This document shows positions 22,109 to 43,809 of a stretch of 64,000 bases of DNA, piece after piece. The stretch's first letter is position 1, and every line of letters starts with the position of its first letter. The translations under genes and the position numbers were made by a program. The DNA comes from Phaeodactylum tricornutum CCAP 1055/1. Taxonomy: Eukaryota; Bacillariophyta; Bacillariophyceae; Surirellales; Neidiaceae. The notes below the pieces were generated by a model. It worked only from the letters and a program-made list of their open reading frames with translations. It ran no database searches and was not told where the DNA came from. The DNA is taken from contig NC_011683.1 in NCBI RefSeq assembly GCF_000150955.2, positions 248,001 through 312,000 on the forward strand. The letters run 5' to 3'.

Positions 22109-25086
22109 TTACACCACATCAGACACATCTTGGGAGTATTCCTGCACTGTCGTAGATGGCTCGTCCGTGGCGACATGAACTTCGGAGAGCATCACTTCTT
22201 CCAAAAGTGGGAAGACTTGAATTCCGTTCTTGTTCCATTCTAATGATCCTGATGTGATAACAGAAACAACTACTTCCCACACGTACGGAACGAAAAAGAT
22301 TTCAGGATCCGCTTCCTCTTCGTACGTAAAGGTGAAGTCTTCGTTTTCGCTTCTTTTTCGACGTTCGGTCACAACGGCTTTGATGCGGTCGATGTTCTCC
22401 CCTAGCACTTTCAAAGCCTTAGTTGCCGTCCGGGCGTCACCATTTTCTTCAATAATTGCCGCTGCTGCTTCTACCACCTTTCGTACTCGTCCAACCTCGC
22501 CCTTGCGAAACGGACAGTCTGTAGAACGATAGAAGTAAAGAATCTGTGAGATTTGAAAATAACATTGATAACAATTTGGTCCCTCATCATAAGAAGTGCC
22601 TTACCGGGGATTGACACTAGACGTTTGAAATCCGCTTGGTGATATACTAGCGCGTATACCAAATGCAAATTATCTTCCATATTTTTCGGACTCAAGGCAT
22701 TTTTGATGACATGTAGTAGTGTCCGTGACACTTCGCCGTGCATAGCTAATGGAGTCGAAAGATCTTCCTCGTCCTCCACGACGTTGGGAAACTGCTTTTT
22801 GAGGGACGTGTAGCGTTTCATTGACGACAGTGTGACGGCAGCCAAGCGCAGGGCGGCGTACTCATGTAGCTCTACGACTGCTGGCGCCAGGTTCATAAGT
22901 ACGGCACAGCAGTTACTCAACAGAAAGGCATCGTGCAATCGATTCATATTAAACGTCAAGGACCGTAGCAAGGATAACAATAATACAGATCCAAGACTAA
23001 TATCTTTCAAATGCCGTTCCTTGTACCAGACAACACTTGGTACCATGACACGGCGAAAGGCATCTTGCCCAAAAGAAACATCTTGTGAAAACAGGAGCAG
23101 CAGAATAACAATCACATAGAGTTGTGATTGGGATCGAAATGGACAATTCCGAATCGATAGTTTGGCACTGCCGCTTGCAACCGTGGTACGATCTGTCCCG
23201 TGTGAGTCATTGCTTGGTCTTCGACTGGATGCTCGGCCGGTGGCGTAATCTTGGGCGTCGAAATGTCGAGGCGAGCTGGCAAAATACAGCGTCCGGAGTA
23301 GAGGCAATACTAGCGTGTCAAGATCGGAACGAGCAGCCATGGCGTCAGCAAACCCAGGTGATGCTTGCAATACTGTGTAGAGCAATAATCCGCCGGGTTC
23401 CGTGTGCGCCGTTTTGCCGAACGATGCAAATAGGGTTTCAAAATTGACTGTTAACGTTGTGCTGTGTCTATGTCCACTGGGCGCTACGGGTGACGCAAAT
23501 CTATCATCATCAACGAGTGGGGTTGTCGGGTCGCTCAGATGCGTGGTCGAGTCTAAAAAGGAAGGATCGGGCAAATCGGGCAAACCTTGTCCATCCGATT
23601 CCCAACGATTGTCCGCCATAGTTTTCAATTCGGCACGAAATGGATGGTTGTCGCCCAGAACCCGTTCATTGTTGAGTAAGAGTAGCAAAAGAGCGTTCCC
23701 TAGATCTGAAACCGGGGCATCACTCAACCATAGGACATCTTTGGTCCGATTGGATTGCTGAATTCTTTGCAAGGTTTGGCGATGCGATTGGTCGTATCCT
23801 TTCTTTGAGTTCTGATGGTGCCCCCATAGTCCCAGGGCCAAGCTCACGAGTCGAAAGGGCAATAAAATAATCGAGCTCGACAAGATTAGCACGCCCTTGG
23901 TGGCATCGAAAATGATACTGTTGTGCTTCGGAGGTTGTATCGCCAATGCCGTCGACGTGTTGGCGTTCGCCGTGAGACTACCAGCAATGCTCGGTTGCTT
24001 CATAGGAGGGGCAGAGGCCTGAACGATACGGTATGATTCGTACAGGCCATCGTCGGGATTGAGCACGGCTTCCATGGGGGCCTTCCGCGACGTAGCTTGC
24101 ACTACGGAACGCGCGAGATGAGCGTGGTAGTGAGCAATGGAGCGAGCCGGAGCAGAGGGTCGTTCGATATACCAATGCAACAAGGTTGCCATCAATTCCC
24201 GAGGAGTCCAACCAACAGGTGGTCCTGGTGAGGATGATTTGGTTTTCTCGTCCTTGCTGATTAATTGCAACAGGAAGTCCCAAAAGACTTGATTGTGTTG
24301 ACGTTGACTGTGAGTACTCCGTGAACCGATACTGGAGCGCAGCGGTTGGTAGAGTTGCGTTGAGCAGCACACAAGGAGCAATTCTAGGACCAAAACGGTG
24401 GTATCGTAGATCTCCGGTATCGTGCGGGTGGCTTCATTCGAAATCGGATCGGACACTAAAAACTGCAACAACGTGTCGAACAAATCGTGCGCTGTATCCC
24501 GTCGGACCGACGTTTCCCGATTGTGATAGACGAAATAATCGGCTAACGTTCCTACCTCCGTTCCGTCATCCTCGTCCGCTTGTGGTACACTAATGTAAGT
24601 AACAATTGCGTGCACAAGTATCGTGAGTAGCTTGACAGCTCCCGCGGTTGCTCGCGCTTTCCCAATCCAACCAATGCGATTCGAGAAGTCCGTGGCGGCA
24701 TCCCCCGGAATCGTGGTACTGCTGCTCGCATGAATGTTCGCGGAAGGAGCAGTGCTGTCATCGGTGTGAGGATCCAGAGTGAGTTCGCGGAGCATGCGTG
24801 TCACGTGGGTTGTTAATGCCGCCACGTTGGAGGACCGCTGTGCGTGCAGACCGACACTGGAGCAGGCTTGTTCCAGTACACTAGCGGAATTCTCGACGAC
24901 GCCCGTGTCCTGGCGCCTGCGACTGTTTCGAATGTGATAGTGCTGAGGGTGTTCGATGTGGACCCAAACGTTGTACCCGTGCAGAATTTCGTGCCACCGA
25001 TCGTCTTGCCAAGGAATGTGTGCGGGTCCAGTAATTTGAAATAATACGTTGGCCAGACTATCGGACGGTTCCAACCGAAATGCTCT
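22109..25086 (-). CDS. DYM: Dymeclin (Golgi-associated), 5' exon not found
   Basis: The body is in two exons: 25086-22605 and 22518-22109, with an 86-bp intron (gtaagg donor, tctacag acceptor, phase 1). About 960 residues are visible. Dymeclin features are clear: LLNNERVLGDNHPFRAEL, the block ILLLLFSQDVSF...WYKERHLKDISLGS with MNRLHDAFLLSNCCAVL, and LVYALVYHQADFKRL. At the very end, FFVPYVWEVVVSV matches the family's FxPYVW motif. In animals dymeclin (DYM) is a helical-repeat protein peripheral to the Golgi, needed for vesicle traffic. The open frame has no ATG near its 5' end: it opens after an in-frame TAG at 25089-25087, which itself fits a splice acceptor (tttgtag). A short first exon, possibly starting with the family's MG..S myristoylation signal, should lie upstream but was not identified. 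Histidine- and serine-rich inserts lengthen it relative to the human protein (669 aa). Confidence 0.85.
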
Positions 25087-25845: not shown

Positions 25846-28800
25846 ATGCCACAAACAGTGCGGAAAGAATTACTATCGTCATCCATGTCCCGTTCGTGGG
25901 ATCAAGAGTGTCTGATTGGCAACAACCTTGCGTTGCTCAATAGCGACACCGATGACGACATTGCGACACCTTTGTATCTGTACGAAACCATGGAACCGAA
26001 CATTCACCCCCGAACGGACCCACAAGCCAAAGCGAATGCATTGGACAACAAAGACGCAAGCATTGGATTCCTTGGTCACGCTAATTTACCAGACTTGCCC
26101 ACGGACGTGTTAGCCCTCGTTTTATCGCATTTGGAGTTACTCGAGATTGCCGCCGTTAGTTTGGTCTCGCGTGCCACGTATCAAGCTTGTCGCGACAGTG
26201 TCGTATGGAAAGTACTGCTAGAGTTTCGCTGGAACGTGGGTCAAGGCCGTGTATCGCCCGCTCTTTTGGAGGAGGACGAAAACTCTAGTCCTACTACACG
26301 GAGCATGGACTATTACCGAGCTTATCAAAACGCTCATCGAAATCCACATACGTTGTGGATCAGACATAGGAACATTGTGTATCCTGGAGATGGTCTTACA
26401 CCAGGACGGTGTTGTATCGACAGTAGCTCTTGTCAAAAGCACGCTTCGGAGGCTGATCGACCTAGACGACAAGGTAGTAATAATCGCTCCAAAATTCGTC
26501 TTTGCCCACATTGCCGAGCCAGACAAGAAGCGCATGAAAGCCACCACGATGAAAAGATGGATACCATTGAAACGCCAGCGCAAGCCATGGCAGCAGCAAC
26601 ACGACGAATGCATCAAAAGTTTCAGTCGTCAACAATGTGGCCATCTGTCGCGGCAGCGTCAGTACTTGTCGACGCCTCCAAAAGCGAAACTGATGCTCAG
26701 GCTTTGATGAAACAGCAACGCCGAATGCAACAAAAAGCATTTGCACAAGCCGCCACGTTTCATCGAAAGCTCCGAACAACCCAGTTTGAATCTTGCCAGC
26801 TTTCCTTTCTGACGGATTTACTGTTCTTTAACCTTACCGACCCGGCGACTAGTGAAGGACAATGGGAACTGGATCAACTCCTCCGCGAAGCCCTTTCAAC
26901 CACCTCACAAACCACCAATATTCCAAACCAACGGCATCGTCGTCCTCATCACCACTTAACCTCGCCACTACACGAAACATCAAACCATTCGTGGCATGTG
27001 GTACAGTTGACCAATTCCGACTTTTTCCGACCCATAGCATTCCAAGTGTATATAGCCCGACCAGATTGCTTTACCTGTTATCCTTCTGCGGGATACTTGG
27101 AACCGGGGGAATCGGTATCATGTGTGATCGGCGTGCGGCCTCTCGGTAGCGCCTTAGCGTACGCATTTGAAGGTCTAAACGTGGCTAGGGAAGGCTTGGA
27201 ACCGGCTTGGGCAGATTTGTATACCGCACAGGCACACTTACCGCTAGCACCACTAAGCTTCAGATATCAATTTGTCGCAACCGTGCCACAACGCTGGGTC
27301 TCACCGGCGCATGATGGTGATATCGATAATGATCTAGCCGCGTATCGCCGACAAGCAAACTCCCTGTACCCTTCTGATCCTTATGCTACTCCAACTGAAC
27401 GGACACTGGATCATCATGGTTGTAAATCTTGGGAAGCCCACAAAGTACGGACTGTGGCACTTTCGGCACACGTGCATGCTCACTATAGCTTTCAAGATTT
27501 TTTGTATGCAACGGGCTTTCGCTCATCTAGATTTGTGAGCATTACAAGGACTAACTTCGTTGCTCCTCAATTGCAAGAAAGATTTCCTGAGATCTTCAAT
27601 CGATTGGCAAACAGTGACGGTTCACAAAGACGATCTTGGAAGGCCACTTCTTCTGATCTTCTTGATACGTTTTCCACTTTAGTGAGCAAGAATACTGAGC
27701 GTCCCTGTTCTTTGTGTAATCGTCCTTGGGGGTTACGGGCTGAGGAGTTGTACCACGCCTTGGTGCTCTCAAAGCTGACGAGCTCATCGTATCAGTTTCG
27801 ACGAGACATGCAGCTGAAGAATCTACAGCGGTGTTTGCGTGTGTTAGCAACGAATACCGCCAAGAATTGTCTTAATGTACGACTTTCTAAGCTGTTCGTT
27901 TCCCTATTTACTATTTTGCAAGCGTACAAAGCTTCGCCGTGGTTAAGTTTGAAACACAAGAAAGTTTTGATCATATGGGAGATAACTTTGGACATCTTTT
28001 GCCGGCAAATACCTGTGGGTGGTGCAAATTGGGTGCCGTGGCGATTTGCGGGTATTTATCGGCATGCGTTGTGCACGGAGTCGGTACATAGCGGACCCAA
28101 TCTCCTTGACGGCGCAAATAATTTCGAGAAGTCCGAAATAAAGGAAGAGCCCGACTATCTGGATGCGTTTCGCCATCTGGCACACTCTCCGGGAAGATAT
28201 TGCCTTGGGCCACAAGAAGACCCGAACCATCTCGACGAAGCCATCGTCATCAACTCATCAAAATATGGCCGGCGTCAAAAGGGAATGATAACAGACATGT
28301 TCATGGACGATCCCGTGTCTACATTCCAAGCGGGAATATGTATGATCAATGATCCGCGGTCATTACTTGTTCATGGAATTTTTGACCGAATTCCATATCC
28401 CGGCTCTATCGTACGAAGGCCGCATTGGATGCCTCTGGAATTGTATATCGAGAGGATAGAGTATGACGATCACGCCACTAACCTGAATGTATCAGCCGGA
28501 GCGCACTTACTTTCATCCAAAGAAAGGACTGCCTACTTTCGCTTACAAAATGGGATGGACATCAACAGCATGGTCGGAGTCGACCCATCGTTAAGACAGA
28601 TAGCAGCAGTTTCAATTCTATCACACCTTTCAATGCAAAACTATTTGCACAATATTCCACCTCCAGGCGTCGGACGGTTTCCGCTGTCGAAGAGGGCGTC
28701 CGTTGGTCAGAGAGCAACTACGGAAGGAGCTGCACTCGACATTGAGCCCTTACTCTTTCATGCAAACCAACAACATTTGGAAGGCTCCTCCACGACAGTG

Positions 28801-30168
28801 AACACTACAACGGGGCAACAACAAGCTCTGCCCCATGCGACTTTTGCAGTGCCGCGCCGCAATCTCCCGCGTCCACCGAATCCTAGGGGACCTCGTCTGG
28901 TCCAGTTACTTTGGATTTTGGCTGCACAAATGGGCCTGGCAGTCGTTGACACATCCGGAGATTCTTCGGTCTACGTCGACCGGAAAATACTCATTGCGAC
29001 TCAGTGGATTAGTATTTCACTTATGATTGTTCCCCTGTTCTTGACGCTCTTTTCCCGATTTTTACAGCTTATTCCGACGCAACCCGTGGACTACAACCTA
29101 GAGAGTTTACCGTTCCACGTCACGAACAAAATGCGGTTCTTGACAGAATACGAATGCGGACAGCTAGCTTTCGGCTTGATACTGGCGTGGCTCGTACTCG
29201 GCCGATGGGTTGAGCGATATACAAGTCGCGACTTTTTGCGCATGATCATGAGCCCAGGGTCGATCACTTCTCCGCAGCTCCATCGACACCGCTGGAAAGT
29301 CTTTTCGGACTGGTTGGGGCTGACGCTTTCCAAGTGGTGGGATGCGATCTGTCCAGTCTTTTTACAAAGCCGGGCCTTTTCTCCTGAATGGAATCGCCGC
29401 TCTCGTAGTGGCATGTTGCAGCACCTCTCCTATTGGCGTAGTCGCAATTTGGCAGAACAAAGATCCTATGCCCATGCCAGTCAAAGGGCGGCTCTATTTG
29501 GTCTCCAACAAAGTGGATTGGAAGATTTTGGCAAGGTGTCGCCAAGCGGCAAGATCGCTTGGGGCATTGGAGTCACTTTGGTGAGTTTCGCCTCGAGTTC
29601 GCCGCACTTTTGGTTGAACTTGGTCACCATCTTTTCGTGTAGTCTAAGTTTGGGCATGACAGTGTCCCTGTACGCCATGGAACACGGCCGGGTGGCCGTG
29701 ACGGTCGCGTCCGGGACCACATCCGCAACCTCGTCGTTGTCGCAAATACCCGTACTAACCGTGGTCATGTTAGGATTCCTCGTTGGGCAGTTGGTGGGTA
29801 GTTCCGGCGGGACGCTGTTCTTGGCCGAATTCGTCGTGACGGCCGTCAGTCTGTTGCTGGGCGGCGCTGGCACGGTGTCCGCAAGCGCGATGGAAAGTTG
29901 GATTTGTTTTTTGTGTTTGGCGAGTACGGCTTTTGGTGGCTATCTATTGGGTCGCGTTGCCCTCATGGACAACATTCGCAACAAACAGAGCGGATACTCT
30001 TCCATGCTCTTGTCCAAAGCGATACTACTCTTGGTGGTGTTTTGGGTCCTGATTTTGTTCGTCGCGCGTTGGGACGTTCCGGTGAGTTTGGTAATTGTCC
30101 GACCGCGCTTACGGACCGACGACAATGTCGCGGTCTCCCGTGCCCAAATAGCCAAGCATTTGCAATAG
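25846..30168 (+). CDS. Giant F-box + MSP-like + polytopic membrane protein (1440 aa)
   Basis: One continuous frame starts at the ATG at 25846 (the earlier GTG was rejected; a Met at 25885 is also possible). Residues about 82-128 are an F-box (LPDLPTDVLALVLSHLELLE...WKVLL), the Skp1-binding module of SCF ubiquitin ligases. A Cys/His pattern (CPHCRARQEAHESHH) follows near residue 225. Residues about 380-480 resemble a major sperm protein/VAP domain: VVQLTNSDFFRPIAFQVY, then CYPSAGYLEPGESVSCVIGV, the beta-sandwich core that in VAPs binds FFAT motifs at the ER. The middle 500 residues are unassigned. From about residue 1015 onward there are 8-9 hydrophobic helices (for example ISISLMIVPLFLTLF, LAFGLILAWLVLG, LLLVVFWVLILFVARW). 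An ER-embedded adaptor that recruits a ubiquitin ligase is the natural inference. No intron is needed. I know no animal or plant protein with this order. Confidence 0.75.
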   Translation: MPQTVRKELLSSSMSRSWDQECLIGNNLALLNSDTDDDIATPLYLYETMEPNIHPRTDPQAKANALDNKDASIGFLGHANLPDLPTDVLALVLSHLELLEIAAVSLVSRATYQACRDSVVWKVLLEFRWNVGQGRVSPALLEEDENSSPTTRSMDYYRAYQNAHRNPHTLWIRHRNIVYPGDGLTPGRCCIDSSSCQKHASEADRPRRQGSNNRSKIRLCPHCRARQEAHESHHDEKMDTIETPAQAMAAATRRMHQKFQSSTMWPSVAAASVLVDASKSETDAQALMKQQRRMQQKAFAQAATFHRKLRTTQFESCQLSFLTDLLFFNLTDPATSEGQWELDQLLREALSTTSQTTNIPNQRHRRPHHHLTSPLHETSNHSWHVVQLTNSDFFRPIAFQVYIARPDCFTCYPSAGYLEPGESVSCVIGVRPLGSALAYAFEGLNVAREGLEPAWADLYTAQAHLPLAPLSFRYQFVATVPQRWVSPAHDGDIDNDLAAYRRQANSLYPSDPYATPTERTLDHHGCKSWEAHKVRTVALSAHVHAHYSFQDFLYATGFRSSRFVSITRTNFVAPQLQERFPEIFNRLANSDGSQRRSWKATSSDLLDTFSTLVSKNTERPCSLCNRPWGLRAEELYHALVLSKLTSSSYQFRRDMQLKNLQRCLRVLATNTAKNCLNVRLSKLFVSLFTILQAYKASPWLSLKHKKVLIIWEITLDIFCRQIPVGGANWVPWRFAGIYRHALCTESVHSGPNLLDGANNFEKSEIKEEPDYLDAFRHLAHSPGRYCLGPQEDPNHLDEAIVINSSKYGRRQKGMITDMFMDDPVSTFQAGICMINDPRSLLVHGIFDRIPYPGSIVRRPHWMPLELYIERIEYDDHATNLNVSAGAHLLSSKERTAYFRLQNGMDINSMVGVDPSLRQIAAVSILSHLSMQNYLHNIPPPGVGRFPLSKRASVGQRATTEGAALDIEPLLFHANQQHLEGSSTTVNTTTGQQQALPHATFAVPRRNLPRPPNPRGPRLVQLLWILAAQMGLAVVDTSGDSSVYVDRKILIATQWISISLMIVPLFLTLFSRFLQLIPTQPVDYNLESLPFHVTNKMRFLTEYECGQLAFGLILAWLVLGRWVERYTSRDFLRMIMSPGSITSPQLHRHRWKVFSDWLGLTLSKWWDAICPVFLQSRAFSPEWNRRSRSGMLQHLSYWRSRNLAEQRSYAHASQRAALFGLQQSGLEDFGKVSPSGKIAWGIGVTLVSFASSSPHFWLNLVTIFSCSLSLGMTVSLYAMEHGRVAVTVASGTTSATSSLSQIPVLTVVMLGFLVGQLVGSSGGTLFLAEFVVTAVSLLLGGAGTVSASAMESWICFLCLASTAFGGYLLGRVALMDNIRNKQSGYSSMLLSKAILLLVVFWVLILFVARWDVPVSLVIVRPRLRTDDNVAVSRAQIAKHLQ

Positions 30169-30359: not shown

Positions 30360-31564
30360 CTAGAGAAAGTAATCCGGTGGCGGGTTTTTAATGGGCACAC
30401 CCCGGGCTTCTTGTGGTGCCGCGTCGAAAATCTTGAAGGACCGTTCGAGGTTTTCGTCGAGTTCCAGTATGGCGGCGACGTTACCGCAGCGGTAGCAGTA
30501 ATTGGGGGCGCTCCATACGGTAACCAAGGCATCATGGAACATGCTGCGGTGTCCTTCCATGACGAGCTGGTGGGCGCGGGCGATGAGACTGAGGTCGTTG
30601 CGTTCGTTAAAGACGGCGACAATGTCACCGCCAAAAAGGTAGCCGGCACCGCGAGGCGACAATCCCCAGCCCTCGAGTTCTTCCGGGTCACTCCACATGA
30701 GATCGCACATGGCTCCATCGTGCGGGACTTCCTGTTTCCGATCAATGACCCGAATCTGATCCAACGTTGATATGGAGGGACTCAAGCCGCCGTGCACGGT
30801 AAACACCTTGTCTTCGATAATGGCCGATAGTGAGAGATAGTCGAAAATTTCGGTGCAGTATCGCCAGACGTTGACCGATCCGTATTTGCGCAAGCATTCG
30901 TCGTAGAAACCGTATACTTGTGTAATTTGTCGTGATTCGTGGTTGCCCCGAATGAGGGTAATCCGATCGGGGTATCGTACCTTGAGGGCGAGGAGCAGTA
31001 GGAATGTTTCGACCGAGTAGTACCCCCGATCGACAAAGTCGCCGAGGAAGAGATAATTTTTGTCTGGACATTCACCGCCGACTTTGAAGAGTTCGACGAG
31101 ATCGTAGAATTGACCGTGAATGTCTCCACAAATCTATTTGTGTCGGAAAAACCGAGCAGATGGGGGAATGTGTGTGAGTGTATGTGGTACATGTTTTGGA
31201 GTGTATGTGGTTCATGTATTTTGGTGTAATGGCATGTACGCTTCCGCGTCTCATTACCGTGTACAAAGTATTCCGCCCCGGAGAGGATGGTACGTACCGT
31301 GACGGGTGCGTCGACGCGTTGGACGTTGGATTCGTCCACGAGTATTTCCCGTGCTCGTAGACAGAGTGCCTTGACTTCTCCTTCGCGCAGATATTCGCAG
31401 CGTTTGAGTCGTTCAATTTGTTCGTCCAAACAGGAATTCCCCGACGCCGTAGTCAGGGAACTCGCCGTCATGTTGGTCGTCCAGGACGATGCCAAAGGCG
31501 GCACCGATGCCGGGGCGGAGGGACGCACGGTCGCCGCCGTGGACTCGGCCGGAGTCTTGTTCAT
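30360..31564 (-). CDS. PPP4C: Protein phosphatase 4 catalytic subunit, 2 exons
   Basis: Exon 1 is 31564-31298 and exon 2 is 31133-30360, joined across a 164-bp intron (gtacgt donor, aaatag acceptor, phase 0). The junction reads [18 protein letters not shown]. All PPP-family metal and catalytic motifs are present: GDIHG (residues 92-96), [19 protein letters not shown] and VHGGLSP. The C-terminus is [16 protein letters not shown], closer to PP4 (RGIP..KP..DYFL) than to PP2A (RRTPDYFL) or PP6. The final Leu is the carboxymethylation site in this family. Exon 1 starts MNKTPAEST and adds about 40 Ser/Thr/Ala-rich residues before the usual start ([14 protein letters not shown]); the total is 346 aa against about 307 elsewhere. 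PP4 acts with regulatory subunits in DNA-damage recovery, centrosome and splicing functions. The intron holds a TG-rich repeat. Confidence 0.92.
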
Positions 31565-36635: not shown

Positions 36636-37670
36636 ATGAGAGAAAGATTTCCTGTCGGAGTGTGCCTCGCGGTAATTTTGCTTTCGTTGTTACCGCTTTC
36701 CGAAAGCAGCGGACCTGCCGCGACTAGTTCGCCCAGTTTGCCTCGATCACGCGCGATTCCGCAAAACAAACGACAACACACGCGACCATGGAATCCCAGC
36801 AACCACATTGACGTCAACGGATTCTTGTCGGGGCTTTACGACCGCATTCCGGGAGAATGGGAAGAAGAAGTCCGCTTGCAAACATCGTTTGGTACCGACT
36901 TTCCGTGTCAGATCCGGCAGGTCCCTGGCGACGGCAACTGCCTCTTTCATTCCATATCTCTATGTTTACAGTACGCTGCCAACGGAACGCATTGGGATTT
37001 GAACACCAGTGATCGCCGGGGCTTGGATGCTTTGTACGAACATTCTCAGACATTACGGCGCAAGGCCGTAGAAGTGCTCCAACACTCGCAGCGTCGCCTA
37101 TTCCTCCAAGGTCGGGAATCACTGCGAGCGCACGAACTCGTTCAAGCCGCCGCACAACAGTACAACTTGAGTCCGGAAGAATATTGCGCTTCCATGCAGC
37201 AGGATTCCGTGTGGGGCGGAGGTCCCGAAATTGTCGCCTTGTGCAATGTTTTGCAAAGACCAATACACGTGTACGAACTCGCTAGCACCACAACACGCTC
37301 GAGTAGGAATGACGACGAAAGGCAATCTTTTGTGCTCCGCCGCATGGCCTGTTTCGGATCACCCAAGTTCGATCGTCGGCAGCCCCTGCATATTTTGTCG
37401 GCCGATTCCCGGTTTCCTGACGTGACGCCAGGGCAGCAGCTGGCTTCGGGCAATCATTTTTTGGCCCTCTTTCCGCATGAACGCAAGGTACGTCGCAAAC
37501 AACGGCTACGTGGAGGGTTTGTACGGAAGTGTGTTACTGTAAGTAATGCAAGGCAAACCGACCAAGACGATGAACCGCACCTTAACGAAGACGAGGGAAA
37601 GCAGCCAGCTGGGCAACGTCGTCACGGGAGATTTACTCAATGGTGGAGGCAGCTGCTCCTTTCGCTATGA
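36636..37670 (+). CDS. OTU-family cysteine protease with N-terminal signal peptide
   Basis: The 344-aa frame starts at the ATG at 36636. Residues 1-25 (RERFPVGVCLAVILLSLLPLSES) are a good signal peptide or signal anchor. The OTU domain spans about residues 90-285. It has the catalytic block VPGDGNCLFHSIS with Asp99 and Cys102, a middle block (ESLRAHELVQAAA ... WGGGPEIVALCNVLQRPIHVYEL), and the catalytic His in SGNHFLALFP (His274). OTU proteases remove ubiquitin or ubiquitin-like modifiers. A signal peptide is unusual for a deubiquitinase and points to the secretory pathway or, in a diatom, to a compartment reached through it. The tail is basic (ERKVRRKQRLRGG) and polar. It is convergent with the USP gene, only 113 bp from its stop. 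Confidence 0.85.
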   Translation: MRERFPVGVCLAVILLSLLPLSESSGPAATSSPSLPRSRAIPQNKRQHTRPWNPSNHIDVNGFLSGLYDRIPGEWEEEVRLQTSFGTDFPCQIRQVPGDGNCLFHSISLCLQYAANGTHWDLNTSDRRGLDALYEHSQTLRRKAVEVLQHSQRRLFLQGRESLRAHELVQAAAQQYNLSPEEYCASMQQDSVWGGGPEIVALCNVLQRPIHVYELASTTTRSSRNDDERQSFVLRRMACFGSPKFDRRQPLHILSADSRFPDVTPGQQLASGNHFLALFPHERKVRRKQRLRGGFVRKCVTVSNARQTDQDDEPHLNEDEGKQPAGQRRHGRFTQWWRQLLLSL

Positions 37671-37783: not shown

Positions 37784-40700
37784 TTAGCTAATGACGCAGC
37801 GATCAGATCGGCCCTTGAGAAGAGTATCCATATCTTCCTCGCTTAATGTCCCTTCCTTCGAAGTCTCCCAAAAGTTGGAAAGATGTGCCTTCGAAACGTC
37901 CCGACGAATGTAGAACAAAATGTACGCGCTCGCATCTACTACATCGCGATCGTGAATCTCATAAATCTGTGCGTCGTTGAACAGCCGCCACTGACCATCG
38001 AATTCCGATTTGAGCGAGGCTACGTAATGTCCACCCGAGAGAGCGCCTTGGTGGTGCACTACGCCGTACAAATCGTACAGCATTTCAGAACGACCATCAT
38101 CCTTGGTCTGCCTATCCTGCCCCACGATATGCGTATCACCGTTGCTCTCTTCACCATTGGATTCAGCGTCGTTCTCCATTTTCAGGACCGTTTTGGGAGC
38201 AACCGAGTCCGGAGCCATGATGCGTGATAGATCCAAACCTTCTATGGGAAAGACAACCAAATCACGAAGCTTGCGACGCATATGTTGCGTAAATTGGAAT
38301 CGCTTCAGTTGGATGATCACCACCGGCGGCAATCGCCAAAGACTCATGCGTTTCGTTTGTACACGAAAGTCTTTGCACCGTGAGCAGTAGGCTTCCGGAA
38401 TCTTTTCCTCCTCGGCAAATGCGTCCAAACATTGCTCCAGCGTTATTGAACCAGCGTGGTTGCCCTTTACTCCGCCACAAGAACTGTGATTCTTAACGAA
38501 CACTGTTGAATGACGCGTGCGTGCCAATGTTTGTTGCGTATTTGATGCCGAGCTCCCCGGTTGCGTCAATCGTTGCCCAAAGCCACCTGTTGCTAAATCC
38601 ACCGCAAAATGCCAGTCAACCACTATGCTGTCGCCGTCCAACACAGTGGTAAATTCATCGTCATCTGGAATGAGACAACCCACGCAGCAGTCGAACCAGC
38701 GACAAATGAGACAGCGACGCCCATCACGAGACGTAATGCGCAATCGGAATCCATAGCGAGGGACAGGTCCAGCAGACACTTCTTCCATGTCTGTTGTCGT
38801 TCTGCCGACGGATTGTCGTTTGCCTGTTTTGGTGAGTTCAACTGATTGCTCTTTGAGATTGACAGTTTTTTTAGAGGAAGAAATCTCGGAAAGGAACCGA
38901 ATCGCTTGTTTGGGTACGACGTTTCGAACCCGTGCTGCAATCAGGTCGTATAAGTCACGCCCAGTACAAGTTTGAAGGTCATTCACACGCATCAGAATTG
39001 GAGTCCCAAAAACACGATGGGCCAAAGGGTGCAGGGAATTTTGCGATACAAGTTCCGAGCGCCGCTGTGCAATTGCCAAAAAGGATGCCCGGGGTTTGAC
39101 GAAGAGAACCTCGCCGTCCGAACTTTCATCTGTTGACACACCGTCGCTCTCTGTCATTGCATTACCTTGCAGCGGCGAGTCTTCAATCGGACTTTCCAGT
39201 TCGTAAACATGTAAGAGGGGTAAGTCTCCGGTCTCTTTGTTTTGGAGGTCTTGTAGAGACCATGTATTCTGCAAGAATCAAACGGACTGTCAGCACAAAA
39301 TCTTTTTCATCACCTTCGCCTTAAACGCATTTGGGAATACGTACCGGTGCTATCTTTGAAATGTAACCGTCCCGCATGTCCACAACAGAGAAATTCTGTG
39401 CCATTTTTTGGTATAAAGCTTCTCTTTCACTCCTTTCTTTTTCGCTTTCCTCGTCTGCTGCTGAATTTGACGACACGGCCTTCCCATTCTGCTCAACATA
39501 CAGTAACATTGCAAGTGCCAGCAACACATCGCGAAGCTTTCCATCACTGTTGACACGAACACAATACTTCAGCGTATCCGTACCGTCTTTCAACGGATAC
39601 ACAACCAGGGAAACTGTCAGCTGATCATCCTCAGGCAGCGGAAGTTGCAAAAACGAGAATGGCTCGAAGCGGGCGCTTTCGTATTTGCAGGATCTACAGG
39701 TCAACAAGCTCTTGTATTGACCGGTAAATAAAGCTACGATGATTGACATTTCTCGTTTCAAGTGATTTGTCCACCAAATATCAGCTAACTCGTGATCCGG
39801 TCGGCCGTCCGAGTCCGGTGCCTCAATATATGGCTTGTCCATTATTCGGTTTAAATCTTCCGAAAGACCACCGAGTAAAAAGGCGAGCAGCTCTTGTGCA
39901 TCGTGTTGCTCATTGCCAGCAAAATGATCATTGAACTTGCCTAGCGAATCCTTGAATGTCTTTGGCGTCAGAGACGGCGCGTTGACCATTGCGTACGAGC
40001 CAGGTGCCCGGACACGACGAAGAGGTACCTGAGGAGTTTGATTGAACTGCTTCCATAACGAATTAATGAGCACTGCACTGACTTGAGCCAAATGCCCTTG
40101 GTGGCCTAGTGGATTGGTGGTATTGATGTCATTGAGGTACGCCTTGGACGTAAAGTATTCCCGAAAAATTGGTGTGTGACTCAAACATTGAATCGAAGAA
40201 TTCAAGTAGCATGTATTTCTGAGAAATGTTGCAAAGAAATTAGCCGTACCGGCTTCAAGTAAAATCAGCATTCAAATTCTTTCTTCCACTTACCCCATAT
40301 TGTACAGACCTACAACCCCATCGCCCAGATCAGAATCAATTTTTTCCTGCGAACTTTTCCCTCGAAATGACCATTCTTTACCATCCACACCTCTAGGCCA
40401 CAGCCCGGTTTCCATGTCCTTGATTTCCAGAAGCAAAGTGATTGCGCCTCCGCTTTGACTTCGACGTTTTCGCTGTTCAACTATGTTTGACCTGGTATCA
40501 ACAATCCAATCGTCGCAATTTTCGTGTCGGCCGTCGGCTGTGACTGATGTGGGTTTATCGTTACTCACAACCCAAAGCCTTGCCAAGTCAGGGTCGACAT
40601 CGAGCTCTTTGCAAAGTTGAACCAATGTGACGCCCACTGGAGTGACTCGACTTAGTTGAAAGTTTTGTTGAAACGGCCGAGCTTCCCCTCGAGATGCGGC

Positions 40701-43400
40701 ATCACAAAGATACACAGTGACAAAGAACGGATACAGTTCGATTTCGTTTTCGGTTGGAATCCGCGGCTTGGAACTGTGCGGGGACGTGGGACCCGACGTT
40801 GCAATGTAGCGTACAACCGAGCGATGAATTGGTGGACCACCATCGTACCATGCCTGGAGAGCGTTCCACCCTAGCGGAGGTAAAATCTCGTATTCATGCT
40901 TCCATCGAATATTGCCTAGTAGAGCCAGACTTCCGTTTTCGGCCAGTAAGGAGGCATTGTTGATTCTAGGAATACCACGAACACCTTTCCGGGACGAGTC
41001 TGAATCGGCACCATCCTCGGGAGTTCCCGAAACCTTCTTCACGTGCGTGGCCCAGAAATTTAGCCAACTGGCGTCGATAATGTACCAAATTGTACCTCGA
41101 GGTCCTCGCCGAGAAACGCTACTCTGAGGATATCGAGCTTTATGGCGCCGTTCTATTTCAGTGATCAAAGAAATCTCCATGGATGCTAGAAGGGGAGGGA
41201 TTCCAAACAGGACGGCCGCAATCAGACGCAGATCCATCATAAGCGCTCCGAGTCGCGACGTAGGACCCGCCTCGGCCGACTGATTCCATGCACAAAAGTC
41301 GTCAAAGTCCATCACATTTTGCACTTTGGTGTGTTTCAGAGCATAATCGACCAGCGTTTTCAGCTCTATTTTTTGTCCATCCTTGGCCGTTCGACCAATC
41401 CTTGGCGGAACGATTCCCAGAAAGACTGCCGTATCCAATTCTACCAGTGCTGCTTCATCCATCGTTTTCAGTTTAGCAGCATTTATGGGATCGTCGTCGT
41501 CTTCTTCGGCAGAATCGTCGTCATCTTGTGGAGGGGAGGCTGCGTCCAACCGAAAATCGGCGTGTTCCAACAGACTAGTCAACATCCGAGCGACCTGTTG
41601 ACGGTTCAGAATCAGCTTGTGGTTGCTGTTGGTCTCATTTTCGTTGTCATTGGAAGATTGGAACATGGCAAAAAGCCATCGCAGAAGTGGTGTGTCGACA
41701 TCATCGGCTCCCACCCTAACGGCAGTACCCCCAAATTGCAAAACATTCGCCAACGTCCAGTACAATTGCGTTTCGGGTTCACCCGTGGACGTCACCGTAG
41801 CATAAGCGCCGTCGGTGCTTCGTGACGCAGAACAAGGGCGAGCGCAACCGGCTTCAAACACCAATTTGGCCAACGATGTGGGCAGATACCCGCCGTGGCC
41901 CATTTCTTCATTGGCGGTCGTGACGGCCGCGACGAAGGAATTGGTACTAATGGCTTGCTTCGGTGTCGCGACGGTGTTACTCTGTGATTCCTCTTCACTG
42001 GCGGCTGCCATGGGGTCACCCTGTAAAAGTGGGGCCGACAGGGACGATTGTACCATGGAATGGAACCGCCGCTTGACCTCGTATAAACGTGCGTCGGTCA
42101 GATCGAACCGTTCCGAGAGTGCTTGTGGCGATGCACTATCAATTGCGGACGACGACGCGGATTGTATGGTTTCGAGATACGCCGTCACGGTTTCTGGGAC
42201 ACTGGGCAGGGGCACCATGGATGATCCCAACGTGGCAACCCAATCCAGCAGTTCGTGTGACCGTGATTCGTCCTGAAAGGTATCCAGCACGCGTCGACAA
42301 AATTGCAACTCCGACACGGTGGCTTGCAAATATCCCACATCCTGATCGGAACTCTCAAATATTGCGTCCAATAGCGGTTTGTAAGGCGAATCCTTGTAGG
42401 AATCTTCACCGTAAACGTCCGTGAGAAAGCGATGAACCGTATCCCTGGTGACGACCCCCTTTTTCTGGTACGCATCGTATATTTGAAACGCCATCGTCGC
42501 CATGGTCCAGACAATTCGTTCTTGTTCCGAAAGTTGCGTATCGTCCAAAAGTGCATCCTGGCCACTCCTACTTTGGTCGTCGTCCGGACTTGTTTGGCGT
42601 ACCAATTCTTGTTGAAAGGTCGTGTACTGTCGACACACGGCGAGTAAAATGAGAACGTCCGGGATGGCAACTTTCGGATTGGCTGCCCCACCGTAATAGG
42701 TCGCTGCCGACGTGGTGGCTCGAGCCTGCAGAGCGTAACTCCAACAATCGAACAGACCCATGTGTCCGGAGGCACCCGCGTGCGGCTGTACCGACACCGG
42801 CGCCAGAAAGGCCCACAACGAGAGCTTGCTGTCCAAGGCAAAGTTACTCGCCAACCATCTTTTCCAGTACGGTGCAATCGTCAGAGGCACGGGTCCCGGT
42901 GCACCGTTCGAATCCATTGGCGGATGACGGTAAAAGAGACTCTCGAGCAACGCCGGGTCCGTGTCGGGGGCGTCGGCAGCCCGCGGCGTTGGGCCGGACG
43001 CGGGTTGGCGCAAGGCGAGAAAGGCCGTCACAATGCGCTCCACCGTGGGACGTCCGAGGATCTCACACGCCTGCCATACGGGTAGAATGTGGGACAAATG
43101 CGACTTCATGGAGACCGACAAATTGGGGACAAGCTCGTGTGTTGGTAGATTTGACTTGGTGAAACGATCGATTGCGCAATCCCACGTTCCCAAAATCAAC
43201 GGGTCATTTATTGGGCGATGCGCTCCGCGTGATAAGGAATGGAGACCAGAAATTGTTCGACGAGGAGAGTCAGAGTATTCGGAGAGGATTGCACGATTGT
43301 TGCTGTTGTGTTTTGGATTGCCTGTGAAGAGCGATTCGATGGACTCGCATAAGTAGGTGTGGTCACTGGGTTTTGCTTTTTTTCGTCTCCCCCCTACCAT
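37784..43400 (-). CDS. USP32/USP15-like ubiquitin-specific protease, 3 exons (about 1821 aa)
   Basis: Three exons join cleanly: 43400-40294, 40218-39345 and 39268-37784, with introns of 75 and 76 bp (gtaagt and gtacgt donors). The first junction rebuilds the catalytic Cys box GLYNMGNTCYLNSS (Cys about 1039). The His box is SGGHYVASL (His about 1741) with ASAYILFY after it. N-terminally there is a helical EF-hand-like region (YDAYQKKGVVTRDTVHRFL, as in USP32), then a DUSP domain (WYIIDASWLNFWATHVKK ... GWNALQAWYDGG) and a ubiquitin-like segment before the catalytic core. An insert splits the core, as in USP4/11/15/32. The enzyme removes ubiquitin from substrates. The start is the ATG at 43400; the frame runs on upstream only to a TTG. 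The EF-hand call is the weakest part because canonical Ca-binding loops are degenerate. Confidence 0.9.
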
Positions 43401-43809
43401 CGTCGTTGTATTCCGTCGTGGTGAGGTGTTCCAGGGTTTTCGGGGTCTCGCCGACTGTGTGTGCGTAGTGAGCGGTGTGGAAGGAAGCAGATTCGGTACC
43501 AATTAGGGAGAACGGTCGCTGAACCCGGATGAAATTGGCGAGTCGACTCTCGGTACTTATTGCGTTGGATACCGGAGGACATTGTCACGACAAGTGTCCG
43601 GAGACTGGAAAAAATCCGACTTCACGTCCGAATACCGCATCGTGCGATGGATCGATCGACCATGACAACGGATCCGTGAAAACGAGCCAAAGAAGCCATG
43701 CCGTCCCAACGACGAACGGCAATCCCTGATTGAACTCAAATCGATTATCTTCAATACCCTCTACAGCTAGACGATACAGAAAGGAAAAACGAACGCCCAG
43801 AAACAGAGT
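43401..43809. other. Bidirectional promoter interval
   Basis: About 410 bp separate the USP start from the next plus-strand gene, so both promoters must fit here. No defined motif was recognised. Confidence 0.5.

Follow-up and report, generated by a model that had tools for sequence, protein, structure and literature searches.

A diatom protein family joining an F-box, a remote MSP-like block and a polytopic membrane domain in one chain

As a rule, F-box proteins are soluble and reach membrane proteins by way of adaptors or lipid anchors. What, then, is a protein that begins with an F-box and ends in a cluster of membrane helices? The question is raised by a frame of Phaeodactylum tricornutum CCAP 1055/1, located at 25846..30168 on the forward strand of the window, i.e., the whole stretch of 64,000 nucleotides analysed here (NC_011683.1, positions 248,001 to 312,000). 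The frame opens at the ATG 25846 and runs through 1440 codons with no internal stop. It has one match in the 27.45 Mb genome (contig C15, 273846-278165). The preliminary description of this DNA as one open frame of 1440 residues holds. Alternative in-frame ATGs at 25885 and 25990 mean that the start may be any of the three; a database protein of 1427 residues, 99% identical, fits the second. The kind of protein is known, but its succession of F-box, MSP-like block and polytopic C-terminus is new as a domain order. A literature search, with most subscription journals outside its coverage, found no publication on the family or on this order, in agreement with the preliminary remark that no described protein was known to have it. 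We propose that the protein is probably a membrane-embedded F-box protein acting as a substrate receptor of a Skp1-Cullin-F-box (SCF) ligase.

The three parts belong to one gene and are conserved together. Searches of protein databases, each scoring only the approximately 8000 candidates with the most shared words, yielded 57 relatives (45, then 10 new of 31 and 2 new of 3). The majority are metagenome proteins; the labelled sources are Nitzschia, Pseudo-nitzschia, Cylindrotheca, Seminavis and Triparma (Parmales), and the code Psemu1 on one relative presumably also denotes Pseudo-nitzschia. As for the ortholog search in other stramenopiles suggested by the preliminary description, relatives were recovered as far as diatoms and Parmales. 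Among the named sources, no relative from outside these two groups was found within the candidates scored. A profile search with diatom members in the profile returned three proteins, none of them an already known diatom protein; because it missed known relatives, absence beyond diatoms and Parmales is not established. The alignment comprises 57 members, including the query and excluding its near-duplicate P0002. F-box, MSP-like block and membrane region are all covered in 41/57 members, in the sense of alignment coverage rather than domain match; three of these 41 (P0031, P0032 and P0037) are devoid of the motif in the fifth transmembrane helix (TM5). The 16 incomplete members, 718 to 1277 residues long, cover the F-box and MSP block (11), the MSP block and membrane region (3), the membrane region alone (1) or the MSP block alone (1). 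One protein, P0039 (label MMETSP1061, taxid 37318, Pseudo-nitzschia pungens), combines the F-box, the MSP block and only the first six helices (TM1-TM6) in a single chain, which stops at the counterpart of W1352; MMETSP presumably refers to a transcriptome project. The coverage of all three parts in 41 members, P0039 among them, argues for one gene and led us to reject two genes or a mis-join.

The F-box, at residues 81-122 (26086..26211, +), was confirmed by two Pfam models that exceed their curated cut-offs: PF00646 (31.8 bits, E 1.1e-7; cut-off 20.5) and PF12937 (27.9 bits, E 2e-6; cut-off 24.3). A full-length profile of 18 members, compared with the PDB, retrieved 21 sequences at E <= 10, all through the F-box region. 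Nineteen bear names of F-box proteins (Skp2 counted), including FBXO3, GID2 and FBXL3, and the remaining two are 'Expressed sequence C85627' and 'cyclin A/CDK2-associated p19'. The top match was FBXO3 (E 5.8e-7, profile positions 83-152). Within the family, PF12937 was matched at E <= 0.01 by 41/57 members (27/34 and 14/23) and PF00646 by 22/34 and 8/23, while the F-box region is absent from the alignment in only 5/57. The same genome encodes Skp1 at two places and gives seven cullin matches, some of which are pieces of one gene.

Profile comparisons indicate that the MSP/ASH-like block, at about residues 378-545 (26977..27480, +) with a variable insert inside, has a real but remote similarity to the MSP-like superfamily. 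The query scored 14.3 bits with PF00635 (E 0.039), below the curated cut-off of 25.9, so that MSP identity is not provable from that single sequence; PF00635 was matched at E <= 0.01 by just 1/34 and 1/23 members, and the full-length profile of 18 members found no MSP structure in the PDB at E <= 10. We then used a block profile, the alignment being trimmed to the block for 11 members hand-picked for diversity out of 30. This profile found VAPA in the PDB (E 0.0068, 18.8 bits), as well as VAPB, and a match of 57% probability, spanning 48 columns, came from hhalign against three VAPs (E 1e-4 as a single comparison). The real profile reached 21.0 bits with VAPA, 19.4 with VAPB and 11.7 with the VAP of the same genome, against a best value of 3.3 bits for 200 column-shuffled profiles, none of which attained the real score. 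The similarity is therefore not due to chance, though it is limited to about 48 columns; the matched core spans approximately residues 386-434, and the later strands were placed by eye. The MSP-like block proposed initially is confirmed at the profile level, and not by the Pfam match of the single sequence.

Models of a related sandwich type, those of CFAP65, HYDIN and Cep192, also match the block occasionally in members, and the HYDIN-type Ig model PF22544 does so weakly in 8/18 at E <= 0.5. Against the PDB, the block profile gave HYDIN a summed E of 5.5e-8 over its repeats, none of them significant singly; as the best repeat scored 9.5 bits, below the 18.8 of VAPA, membership of HYDIN was rejected. 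Despite these weak Pfam and PDB likenesses to ASH-type Ig domains, HYDIN, CFAP65 and Cep192 are ciliary or centrosomal proteins built of repeats, whereas the diatom membrane protein has one block. Three histidines, H381 and H384 at the start of the block (26986-26997) and H542 near its end (27469-27471), are almost invariant (98 to 100% of 56 members) and might form a metal site.

Two cysteine pairs flank the block: CPHC at residues 220-223 (26503..26514, +) and CSLC at residues 621-624 (27706..27717, +), a possible zinc partner of C220/C223. Both pairs are present in 50/58 proteins, query and near-identical P0002 included. Five proteins have gaps at one or both sites. Of the 53 in which both sites can be read, 50 have both pairs; the second alone is absent in P0022 and P0044, and both in P0053. 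That pairs 400 residues apart share one zinc is a guess, and the loss of the second pair alone in two proteins speaks against a strict dependence between them.

The C-terminal part, residues 1046-1410 (28981..30075, +), forms a predicted membrane domain of eight helices. Hydropathy places TM1-TM4 at about residues 1048-1066, 1104-1122, 1237-1255 and 1259-1277, and TM5-TM8 at about 1301-1319, 1324-1342, 1355-1373 and 1388-1406. Using a mean hydropathy of 1.2 over 19 residues as the threshold, TM1 to TM6 were recovered in 41, 37, 31, 40, 41 and 41 of 41 members, TM7 in 34/37 and TM8 in 36/36. A ninth candidate at 1018-1036 passed in 20/41, and thus, of the eight to nine helices announced by the preliminary description, eight are the better supported. 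The rule of segments above hydropathy 1.6 gives six at this C-terminus, the doubtful 1018-1036 among them; in 19 other F-box-like frames of the genome, compared as single frames and not as spliced genes, so that exons elsewhere are missed, it gives one segment in 7 and none in 12.

The distribution of charges bears on the orientation of the chain. The loop between TM2 and TM3, residues 1124-1235 (29215..29550, +), is basic, with a mean of 18.9 K+R versus 11.5 D+E in 41 members, and the TM1-TM2 loop is rather acidic (2.7 K+R, 4.2 D+E). Both values agree with a cytosolic N-terminus and a predicted cytosolic TM2-TM3 loop. No hydrophobic segment was detected by hydropathy on the N-terminal side of the F-box, which also fits a cytosolic F-box.

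These data can be assembled into a mechanism in which the eight helices would fix the protein in an internal or the plasma membrane, with the long N-terminal part facing the cytosol. From there the F-box would recruit a Skp1-Cullin-RING ligase, while the MSP-like block and the conserved surroundings of the CxxC pairs, which may form a single zinc site, may jointly bind or position the substrate and the membrane domain may hold or recognise membrane partners. The closest parallels are FBXO3, FBXO2 and FBXO6, in which an F-box is combined with a beta-sandwich that can bind substrate. Like them, and FBXO3 foremost as the top PDB match, the diatom protein has its F-box first and its sandwich next; in contrast, its sandwich is MSP-like and theirs of the ApaG or FBA type, and a polytopic membrane domain exists only in the diatom protein. 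Since receptors built from an F-box and a beta-sandwich are already known, we read the sandwich as a putative substrate-binding or scaffold module in preference to a tether. Several points weigh against the proposal of a membrane-embedded SCF receptor. F-box proteins working outside SCF exist. The F-box is also less conserved than the MSP core and TM5-TM6, the mean commonest-residue fractions being 0.55, 0.68 and 0.77, respectively (0.49 overall), and PF12937 at E <= 0.01 is missing in 16/57 members. Finally, the loop joining TM7 and TM8 has a slight excess of basic residues (2.9 K+R, 0.9 D+E), which does not suit the luminal side predicted for it.

The conservation pattern raises a rather unlikely alternative, a sensor or transporter with its own ligase adaptor, whose membrane domain, marked by GSSGG...E, would bind a ligand or an ion and thereby regulate what SCF does to the protein itself or to partners. 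Over all 15-residue windows of the protein, conservation is indeed highest in the motif GQLVGSSGGTLFLAE across TM5-TM6, residues 1314-1328 (29785..29829, +), with a mean commonest-residue fraction of 0.88. Its terminal E1328 is found in 95% of the 44 members with a residue there, and the acidic character is preserved in Triparma P0056, which has D. When non-overlapping windows are ranked by conservation, the top ten comprise six from the membrane domain, one from the MSP core and three from elsewhere in the chain, and the F-box contributes no window; among the five best is LWIxHxNxVxP at residues 166-180 (26341-26385; 0.80), directly after the F-box, a stretch without a name in our Pfam scans. 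This peak in the membrane domain speaks for a role beyond anchoring. However, the membrane domain had no Pfam match above cut-off in the seven members scanned with cut-offs, and for a profile of residues 1228-1425 (TM3-TM8, leaving TM1 and TM2 outside) the sole PDB hit was an unrelated chain (E 1.3). Three transporter or channel candidates were rejected in the same way: a TRIC channel (E 0.011 with one sequence) and a Na/Ca exchanger (single-sequence E 3.7) were not reproduced by the TM3-TM8 profile, nor was an aquaporin-like MIP domain, the best sub-threshold Pfam match (E 0.011, one member).

A further reading is a non-degradative function: the F-box would bind Skp1 outside SCF, in another complex, and the main role of the protein would be that of a structural scaffold in the membrane, equipped with a HYDIN/MSP-like domain. 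F-box scores lie below both Pfam cut-offs in 2/6 members (P0030 and P0039), and the weak PF22544 matches mentioned above would suit such a scaffold. Nevertheless, 17/18 members have an F-box match at E <= 0.5, and the majority consensus keeps LExLSxDVxALILSHLxLxEIAxVSLVS...LWKxL, and we consider this explanation improbable.

The preliminary description had gone further and placed a membrane-fixed SCF receptor at contact sites of the endoplasmic reticulum (ER). The receptor part fits, with Skp1 and cullins encoded in the genome; the contact site was examined through those residues of VAPA that PMC7610837 names as FFAT contacts. Eight of these can be mapped by alignment (K50, V51, K52, T53, T54, V61, R62 and N64), and three further contacts, K94, M96 and K125, lie outside the mappable part. 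None of the eight is kept in 12/56 members, one in 33/56 and two in 11/56. Those kept are confined to K50 (3/56), V51 (13/56) and V61 (39/56), while K52, T53, T54, R62 and N64 are retained in 0/56; the 1440-residue protein keeps one, V401, equivalent to V51. As a control, eight other positions of the same VAPA stretch, in the numbering of that article, were followed: N41 (56/56) and P42 (53/56), numbers 36 and 37 by chain position, P63 (56/56), G66 (55/56), P70 (46/57) and G71 (57/57) are maintained; F49 remains in only 19/56, with W or Y replacing it in 36 more, and Y59 in 0/56, where 55 have F. A separate VAP of the same genome (locus L002, 1230-2346), whose MSP domain is split by an apparent intron, keeps all eight mapped contacts as FKVKTT...VRPN over two frames. 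Within the mappable positions, the block therefore shows the pattern of an MSP domain but lacks the binding site of VAP. Compared with VAP and MOSPD proteins, the diatom protein shares an MSP-like core in a membrane protein; it differs by the missing contact residues among those listed, by eight helices in place of a tail anchor and by the added F-box. An ER contact-site tether, in which the MSP domain would bind FFAT motifs of partners like VAP and the F-box would have them ubiquitinated there, can draw on the 48 aligned columns and on the fold-core residues N41, P63, G66 and G71, but with 0-2 of the eight listed contacts kept, against all eight in the genome's own VAP, it is unsupported and most improbable.

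The gene is bordered upstream by a Dymeclin-family frame on the opposite strand (22471-25074, -; PF09742, E 4.3e-64) and adjoined by a metallophosphatase frame, also on the opposite strand (30360-30893). An OTU-type protease frame (36636-37670, +; E 4.5e-16) and a DUSP-domain frame (40290-43502, -; E 9.6e-12) lie less than 15 kb from it. Both families are tied to deubiquitination; in eukaryotes, neighbouring genes seldom share function.

With a single match in the genome and knock-outs established in Phaeodactylum tricornutum, the idea of a membrane-embedded SCF receptor can be tested in this organism. A bolder version, which we regard as doubtful, would make the protein a single-chain receptor-ligase, its polytopic domain sensing a ligand or holding a membrane substrate and its F-box and MSP-like block converting this into SCF ubiquitination; the membrane domain would then be of a kind unmatched in Pfam or PDB in this analysis. 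If true, this would represent an ochrophyte branch, in diatoms and Parmales, of membrane quality control or nutrient sensing. More generally, a conserved family with a polytopic SCF adaptor would give diatoms a direct route from the membrane to the cullin ligase.

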